Of a stretch of 64,000 nucleotides of DNA, positions 35,711 to 38,521 are shown in pieces. A model generated the notes under the pieces. The model searched no databases. It worked only from the letters and a program-made list of their open reading frames with translations, and was not told where the DNA came from. The stretch is from Archaeoglobus profundus DSM 5631 (GTDB lineage: Archaea > Halobacteriota > Archaeoglobi > Archaeoglobales > Archaeoglobaceae). The DNA is taken from assembly GCF_000025285.1 (NCBI RefSeq), contig NC_013741.1, positions 124,001 through 188,000 of the forward strand. Reading direction: 5' to 3'. The position numbers and the translations under genes were made by a program. The stretch's first letter is position 1. The number at the start of each line of letters is the position of its first letter.

Positions 35711-35935
35711 ATGAAGCTTAAAGATGAGATAATCAAAGCTTTGGAGGATTTCTTTAGGAGTGCGAAGGACTACAGGAGAGTACAATGGGAGCTTGATAAC
35801 ATTATCTACCCTTATATCGGAAACTACATAGCCAACGGTTATCTCACGAAGGAGGAAGGTAAGGAAATATTCGAGTTTTGTGAGAAGAAGCTTAAAGAAC
35901 TTAAGAATCAGGGAGTACAGCCTTCATCATCTTGA
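35711..35935 (+). CDS. small helical protein of unknown function
   Basis: A 74-residue soluble, charged protein, rich in Lys and Glu, with several aromatic residues (YRRVQWELDNIIYPYIGNYI) and an amphipathic C-terminal helix. I do not recognise it. The frame can start at TTG 35708, but ATG at 35711 is preferred. AGTATATATATTTAA lies about 25 bp upstream. Its last codons overlap, antisense, the box C/D sRNA at 35906-35962. Confidence 0.6.
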   Translation: MKLKDEIIKALEDFFRSAKDYRRVQWELDNIIYPYIGNYIANGYLTKEEGKEIFEFCEKKLKELKNQGVQPSSS

Positions 35936-35962
35936 ATCAGATCCTGCCTGATTCATCATTGA
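35906..35962 (-). ncRNA. box C/D guide sRNA (predicted 16S rRNA methylation guide)
   Basis: Minus-strand RNA with box C ATGATGA (35953-35959), guide AUCAGGCAGGAU (12 nt), D' CTGA (35937-35940), 6-nt spacer, C' ATGATGA (35924-35930), guide AGGCUGUACUCC (12 nt), and D CTGA (35908-35911), the exact archaeal sRNA layout. The second guide can pair with GGAGUACGGCC, a conserved 16S segment, with 11 of 12 positions paired including one G-U. The first pairs with AUCCUGCCGGAG near the 16S 5' end with 10 of 12. Its own TATA box lies about 26 bp upstream. TGAATCAG/CTGATTCA is an internal 8-bp inverted repeat. Confidence 0.8.
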
Positions 35963-37476: not shown

Positions 37477-38265
37477 TTAGACTTGCTTGAATCCCAGCAC
37501 GTGATCCATGTCGTATATACCGGGCTTGTCCACCTTGCTTACCCACTTGATAGCCCTTATAGCACCACTCGCGAAAGCCTGTCTACTCCAAGCCCTATGA
37601 GTAATCTCAATTCTTTCACCCATTCCAATGAAGAACGTTGTATGCTCTCCAACCACGTCTCCTCCTCTTATGGCAAGAACACCTATCTCTTCACCCCTCG
37701 GACAAATTCCTCCCCTTCCAAATACGATCTTTCTCTTACCTATAACACTCTGAACGATTTCAGCCGTTTTCAAAGCTGTTCCGCTCGGTGCATCCTTCTT
37801 AAATCTGTGGTGGATCTCCAAAATCTCGATATCGTAATCCTTCAAGAACTTCGAAGCGAATTCTACAAGCTTCCAAAAGATGTTCACACCGACACTGAAG
37901 TTTGGTGATATTACAGCTGGAACTCTTTTACAATACTCTCTAATCCTCTGCCAGTGCTCCTCCGTAAATCCTGTTGTCCCAACGACCAGCTTAACACCCT
38001 TATCGCTTGCGATCCTTATATTCTCAACTGCTCCTTCGGCTACCGTAAAATCCACCAAGACATCGGCGTTAAGAACATTCTCCATTTCCCTTGCATCTGT
38101 TATCTGAACACCAATTCTACCAACACTGGCAATCTCTCCTGCATCCTTTCCGATTTCTCTCACGTCAAAAGCTTGAGCAAGTTCAAGCTCTTCATCCTCA
38201 ATGACATTCTTAACAATCAATCTTCCCATCCTACCAGCAGCACCGGCCACAGCAACTTTAATCAT
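37477..38265 (-). CDS. dapB: 4-hydroxy-tetrahydrodipicolinate reductase
   Basis: A 262-residue NAD(P)H-dependent reductase of lysine/diaminopimelate synthesis. IKVAVAGAAGRMGRLIVKNV is the Rossmann start, DFTVAEGAVENIRIA and VVGTTGF follow, and the catalytic part is SPNFSVGVNIFWKLVE with EILEIHHRFKKDAPSGTALK. An upstream in-frame start at 38280 exists; ATG at 38265 with GTTATTTTTG about 26 bp before it is preferred. No other lysine gene is near. Its promoter touches the terminator of the tRNA-Gln/sRNA unit. Confidence 0.94.
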   Translation of the reverse strand: MIKVAVAGAAGRMGRLIVKNVIEDEELELAQAFDVREIGKDAGEIASVGRIGVQITDAREMENVLNADVLVDFTVAEGAVENIRIASDKGVKLVVGTTGFTEEHWQRIREYCKRVPAVISPNFSVGVNIFWKLVEFASKFLKDYDIEILEIHHRFKKDAPSGTALKTAEIVQSVIGKRKIVFGRGGICPRGEEIGVLAIRGGDVVGEHTTFFIGMGERIEITHRAWSRQAFASGAIRAIKWVSKVDKPGIYDMDHVLGFKQV

Positions 38266-38278
38266 GTTGTGAGTTGAC

Positions 38279-38292
38279 AAAAATCAAAAATA
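38279..38292 (-). terminator. oligo-T terminator of the tRNA-Gln/sRNA unit
   Basis: Two runs of five T on the minus strand (plus AAAAATCAAAAATA), just 13 bp after box D of the sRNA. Oligo-T runs end transcription in archaea. The same bases contain the dapB TATA element, so termination and initiation overlap here. Confidence 0.5.
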
Positions 38293-38302
38293 ACGGTTAC
38301 GA

Positions 38303-38355
38303 TTTCAGCGTAGGACTTTTTCATCATGTATCAGGGCGTTAGCCCTTCATCACTT
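38303..38355 (-). ncRNA. box C/D guide sRNA directly downstream of tRNA-Gln
   Basis: Minus-strand elements: box C GTGATGA (38347-38353), guide AGGGCUAACGCC (12 nt), D' CTGA (38331-38334), spacer TAC, C' ATGATGA (38321-38327), guide AAAAGUCCUACG (12 nt), D CTGA (38305-38308). All spacings are ideal for an archaeal C/D sRNA. By the D+5 rule the targets would be the fifth U of GGCGUUAGCCCU and the fifth G of CGUAGGACUUUU; I could not place these on rRNA or tRNA from memory. Only five bases separate box C from the tRNA 3' end, and no promoter fits in between, so it should be processed from a tRNA-sRNA precursor. Confidence 0.85.
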
Positions 38356-38358
38356 TAA

Positions 38359-38431
38359 TAGCCCCGCGGGGATTCGAACCCCGGTCGCGGGCTCCAAAGG
38401 CCCGCAGGATTGACCGCTACCCTACGGGGCT
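38359..38431 (-). tRNA. tRNA-Gln (anticodon UUG)
   Basis: A 73-nt cloverleaf on the minus strand. The 7-bp acceptor pairs AGCCCCG with CGGGGCT; the T-arm holds GGTTCGAATCC; the anticodon stem CGGGC/GCCCG encloses loop CTTTGGA, giving anticodon TTG. The discriminator base is A and CCA is not encoded. No intron. A CTTTAACTA box lies about 26 bp upstream. In archaea it is charged through Glu-tRNA-Gln amidation (family knowledge). Confidence 0.95.
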
Positions 38432-38521
38432 TCAAGTTAGACAACGCTAGAAGATAGTTAAAGATTTCGTTCAAGACACAAAAATTTAAATTTTAAATAC
38501 AACTGCAGAAGCATCCCGTGC

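Follow-up and report, generated by a model that had tools for sequence, protein, structure and literature searches.

A tRNA-Gln(UUG) gene followed on the same strand, 5 nt downstream, by a box C/D sRNA was observed in the window, the whole stretch of 64,000 nt of Archaeoglobus profundus DSM 5631 that was analysed (C1:124001-188000; the genome of this thermophilic archaeon comprises 1,563,423 bp in two contigs, of which the chromosome makes up 1,560,622 bp). The arrangement is real and had been correctly seen in the sequence-only reading, whose placement of the two genes was borne out by ARAGORN, Rfam and the sequence itself. The pair probably constitutes a dicistronic gene, from which the sRNA would be released by tRNase Z, with a D' guide predicted to direct methylation of U43 of tRNA-Gly(UCC) and a D guide that would be an orphan.

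Anatomy and conservation of the tRNA-Gln/sRNA unit

The features of the unit were as follows, in order of transcription.

38359-38431 (-): tRNA-Gln(UUG), predicted by ARAGORN and Rfam RF00005 (60.7 bits)
38354-38358 (-): linker UUAAA, 5 nt, from the tRNA discriminator base to the C box, from the sequence
38305-38353 (-): box C/D sRNA, C box to D box; exact box layout, conserved in G016
38347-38353 (-): C box GUGAUGA, from the sequence
38335-38346 (-): D' guide AGGGCUAACGCC, 12 nt, from the box layout; kept in G016
38331-38334 (-): D' box CUGA, from the sequence
38321-38327 (-): C' box AUGAUGA, from the sequence
38309-38320 (-): D guide AAAAGUCCUACG, 12 nt, probable orphan, from the box layout; diverged in G016
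38305-38308 (-): D box CUGA, from the sequence
38279-38290 (-): T5GAT5 run, possible terminator, 14-25 nt past the D box, from the sequence
37477-38265 (-): dapB, dihydrodipicolinate reductase; ORF with Pfam DapB_N (1.3e-36) and DapB_C (3.2e-43)

Read along the minus strand from 38353 to 38305, the sRNA had the order GUGAUGA-AGGGCUAACGCC-CUGA-UAC-AUGAUGA-AAAAGUCCUACG-CUGA, that is, the C, D', C' and D boxes in the order and with the 10-12 nt guides of C/D sRNAs (RUGAUGA/CUGA criteria); the perfect boxes and two 12-nt guides described earlier were thereby found again, as the single exact match in the window. The sRNA lay directly 3' of the tRNA on the same strand, as expected of a tRNA-C/D dicistron, with a spacing of 5 nt here and 7 nt in G016, a near-complete genome of the same genus. 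CCA was not encoded in the tRNA-Gln gene, and the ATG of dapB was located 39 nt past the D box. The D' guide together with the D' box (38331-38346) can form a 5-bp hairpin, AGGGC-UAAC-GCCCU; this palindrome, pointed out in the sequence-only reading, was retained in G016 with one G-C pair changed to G-U.

When up to three mismatches were allowed, the C/D layout was still observed once in the window, whereas 0.01 occurrences were expected per window from shuffled sequences. A genome-wide search for the C/D'/C' pattern gave 35 matches versus 1 for the reversed-pattern control, which indicates that C/D sRNAs are numerous in the genome and that 38305-38353 is one of them. No match to the sRNA was obtained in Rfam at the gathering threshold; identification thus rests on box layout and conservation. 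The missing Rfam match is what speaks for a chance arrangement of boxes at 38305-38353 that would not function as a C/D sRNA, but this is extremely improbable in view of the expectation of 0.01, the 35 matches against 1, and the retention in G016 of the boxes and the D' guide while the adjoining bases diverged.

To evaluate conservation, tRNA-Gln was searched in 57 genomes of the order and the regions behind about 29 fetched loci were read. Among these, a C/D sRNA behind tRNA-Gln(UUG) was observed only in G016 (L089), where it is followed by dapB as in the window. Since the pair was present in two genomes only, its conservation amounts to one comparison. In that comparison the boxes and 11 of the 12 bases of the D' guide were kept, whereas the linker, the spacer and the D guide had changed, a pattern that fits selection on the D' guide. 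With the strict patterns used in these surveys, the sRNA was absent in the other genera of the order. In other genera the same D' guide was not found in a C/D context; it had this context in the two genomes of the genus, and the other matches were unrelated sequence. A scan of the whole database was run with a C-to-C' gap of 24-29, compared with 20 in the sRNA described here, and its 46 matches are uninformative on the tRNA-sRNA arrangement; two archaeal matches inspected from it (L150 and L159) were not C/D sRNAs.

A further C/D sRNA was noticed in the window at 35908-35959 (-), just 3' of a thiI-like gene. It possesses the guides AUCAGGCAGGAU and AGGCUGUACUCC and an AT-rich promoter-like stretch of its own, AGAAAGATTTATTA; its D guide matched 23S rRNA over 9 bp at nt 1926 and 16S rRNA over 11 bp, one of them a G-U pair, at nt 867.

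Promoter-like sites and probable transcription of the unit

Promoter-like sites were scored with a position weight matrix (PWM) derived from the sequences upstream of 39 further tRNA genes in the same genome. Two sites bear on the unit.

38457-38470 (-): BRE/TATA promoter-like element of tRNA-Gln, ACGAAATCTTTAAC, PWM 5.7 bits, at -39 to -26 from the tRNA 5' end
38289-38302 (-): dapB promoter-like site, PWM 9.1 bits, at -37 from the ATG; 7.0 bits in G016

The tRNA-Gln site had a position typical for tRNAs and was conserved in G016 as ACGAAACTTTTAAC (5.9 bits); its score is modest, the 95th percentile of shuffled 60-mers being 7.0 bits at any position. No promoter-like site was found between tRNA-Gln and the sRNA: over the 60 nt that precede the C box, most of them within the tRNA, the PWM score peaked at 0.6 bits. 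This agrees with the earlier claim that the spacing leaves no room for a promoter, and the tRNA-Gln promoter is thus the only visible one for the sRNA. A start of the sRNA inside the tRNA gene or the linker, independent of processing from the tRNA precursor, is very unlikely: it has in its favour the general possibility that promoters of other types, to which the PWM is blind, are present, but the score of 0.6 bits compares with about 8-16 bits for most tRNA genes of the genome.

At the 3' side, no hairpin-type terminator was found after the sRNA, and the T5GAT5 run overlaps the dapB promoter-like site by two bases, so that a terminator of the sRNA is not established. The run could terminate the transcript or belong to the dapB promoter region. 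Of the statement that the sRNA ends at an oligo-T terminator, the run itself was confirmed, whereas the role assigned to it is unproven. These features also bear on the possibility that the sRNA is excised from a longer tRNA-Gln/sRNA/dapB transcript. The short distance from the D box to the dapB ATG, which occupies the same place in G016, would suit such a transcript, and longer transcripts are the source of most archaeal C/D sRNAs (PMC7994747), but the T-run intervenes, as does the dapB promoter-like site, which was scored in both genomes, and this explanation is considered unlikely.

Co-transcription of tRNA-Gln and the sRNA, with release of the sRNA 5' end by tRNase Z, is the best-supported reading and is likely, given the lack of room for a promoter, the conserved layout and the presence of another such pair elsewhere in the genome (see below). 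Transcription from the tRNA-Gln promoter would run on into the sRNA, and cleavage by tRNase Z after the discriminator base would generate the tRNA 3' end and leave the sRNA with a 5-nt leader ahead of the C box. Assembly of L7Ae, Nop5 and fibrillarin at the C/D and C'/D' motifs would then protect the body of the sRNA during trimming of its ends.

Candidate targets of the two guides

The target scan covered the 16S and 23S rRNAs and the tRNAs of the genome. Against 16S and 23S rRNA, neither guide of the tRNA-Gln sRNA surpassed its shuffled versions (60 shuffles each, 20/60 being as good in each case). The D' guide AGGGCUAACGCC formed 11 contiguous Watson-Crick pairs with nt 39-49 of tRNA-Gly(UCC), starting from the base next to the D' box, a match equalled by 48 of 20,000 shuffled guides when compared with any tRNA. 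The D' guide thereby shows target complementarity in register with its box, a characteristic of archaeal C/D sRNAs. Linear nt 44 lies opposite the fifth guide nucleotide and was numbered U43 under the standard tRNA scheme. The paired segment comprises part of the variable loop and of the 3' side of the anticodon stem, and the D' guide is predicted to direct 2'-O-methylation of U43 in tRNA-Gly(UCC). Of the target strings proposed in the sequence-only reading for a search of rRNA and tRNA, GGCGUUAGCCC was present in tRNA-Gly(UCC), while CGUAGGACUUUU gave no convincing target and rRNA no credible match.

The D guide AAAAGUCCUACG is probably an orphan. A 7-bp match between it and the D arm of tRNA-Gly was rejected, as 4521 of 20,000 shuffles were as good and the match was lost in G016. 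In Pyrobaculum, sRNAs targeting tRNAs have one guide for a tRNA and one without target (PMC7994747), a pattern matched here by the D' guide paired to tRNA-Gly and the orphan D guide.

tRNA-Gly(UCC) was identical in G016, in which the guide base nearest the D' box forms a G-U instead of a G-C pair with it. Many other genera share the target sequence in their tRNA-Gly, but no such guide was found there; modification of U43, if real, would thus be a genus-level trait or be guided differently elsewhere. In the genus designated g11, tRNA-Gly reads GGCGUUGGCCC. No report of Um43 in archaea was found, and the text of Wolff 2020 (PMC7668247) that was searched contained no mention of "position 43".

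It is somewhat unlikely that the dicistron is real while the match to tRNA-Gly arose by chance, the sRNA acting instead on 5S, SRP or RNase P RNA, on an mRNA, or as a folding chaperone of rRNA. In PMC4644070 one-third of archaeal C/D sRNAs lacked complementarity to rRNA, orphan guides are common (PMC7994747), and the target scan was confined to 16S and 23S rRNA and the tRNAs. The ability of the D' guide to fold on itself speaks against the main reading. A chance origin is opposed by the 11 contiguous pairs in D' register, at a frequency of 48/20,000 in shuffled guides, and by the conservation of both guide and target in G016. The tRNA-Gly(UCC) target is the most useful new prediction of this analysis, the other addition being the tRNA-Ser comparison given below.

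A second tRNA/sRNA pair and relation to known systems

In the same genome, a C/D sRNA was observed 3 nt behind tRNA-Ser(GGA) (C1:1222529-1222610, minus strand).

G000:C1:1222478-1222610 (-): pair of tRNA-Ser(GGA) and C/D sRNA (L071), second dicistron

The D guide of this sRNA matched 23S rRNA over 10 bp at nt 2050, a result reached by 0/60 shuffles, and the corresponding guide of G016 would form 12 bp at the same site, the 23S rRNA of A. profundus being used for both. G016 possesses the same pair (L149), except that tRNA-Ser(UGA) instead of tRNA-Ser(GGA) precedes the same sRNA, which suggests an anticodon change or a replacement between near-identical tRNA-Ser genes. In four genomes of genus g11 (L199-L202), an sRNA whose guides are almost identical was located beside the same convergent gene (about 72% identical protein), with no tRNA in front, and the gene on the tRNA side in A. 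profundus and G016 (L197/L198) was unmatched in g11. This break of synteny on the 5' side of the sRNA indicates that a rearrangement there either joined or removed the tRNA. The occurrence of this sRNA with and without a tRNA is consistent with a proposal in the literature that location in a transcribed region is all that an archaeal C/D sRNA requires. With a strict tRNA plus C/D pattern, matches were found in four genomes of a phylum sample of 391. Two of these belong to this genus and showed both pairs; the others had one match each, that in G023 lacking an evident tRNA upstream and that in G133 lacking a clear C' box.

The tRNA-Ser pair, together with the presence of its sRNA without a tRNA in the neighbouring genus, may suggest that tRNA genes repeatedly became promoters of C/D sRNAs in this genus. 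We tentatively consider it possible, though doubtful as a whole, that such recruitment occurred repeatedly and that a guide RNA derived from the tRNA-Gln transcript methylates U43 of tRNA-Gly(UCC), linking two tRNAs in maturation.

Near-identical sequences were also noticed directly behind different tRNAs, i.e., L028/L081 (Ser GCT/CGA), L023/L026 (Val TAC/GAC) and L074/L076/L082 (several Leu), as though tRNA 3' ends had been colonised by related genes or elements.

An archaeal tRNA and C/D sRNA in such tight spacing had been singled out in the sequence-only reading as worth attention, but the arrangement already has published archaeal precedents. In N. equitans, a dicistron of tRNA-Val(UAC) and sRNA8 was detected by RNA-seq and RNase Z was proposed to create the sRNA 5' end (Randau 2012, PMC3491384); PMC7994747, citing Tripp 2017, mentions C/D sRNA dicistrons for I. 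hospitalis (with tRNA-Ser) and T. tenax (with tRNA-Pro). As in these cases, the A. profundus sRNA follows a tRNA directly and in the same orientation, shows no promoter of its own, and is expected to acquire its 5' end through tRNA 3' maturation. Unlike them, it involves another tRNA and lineage, the order tRNA-Gln/sRNA/dapB is kept in the genus, the predicted target is another tRNA, and the unit is described from sequence. No paper on C/D sRNAs of A. profundus was found in the literature searched. The A. profundus unit extends the published examples found by a further tRNA-C/D dicistron that has comparative support, with Um43 of tRNA-Gly(UCC) as a specific target prediction.

Plant tRNA-snoRNA units are RNA polymerase III genes, whereas the A. 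profundus locus has an archaeal-type promoter. In both, the tRNA is followed by a C/D RNA and RNase Z is expected to separate the two (Kruszka 2003, as cited in PMC3491384 and PMC7994747). The plant and archaeal units are likely of independent origin. In the guide located in the tRNA-Trp intron (Clouet d'Orval 2001) and in Pyrobaculum families (Lui 2018; both papers cited from PMC7994747), one guide matches a tRNA, as is the case here; unlike in those systems, the site predicted for the A. profundus sRNA is U43 of tRNA-Gly(UCC), outside the wobble site, and the guide lies behind another tRNA rather than within an intron.
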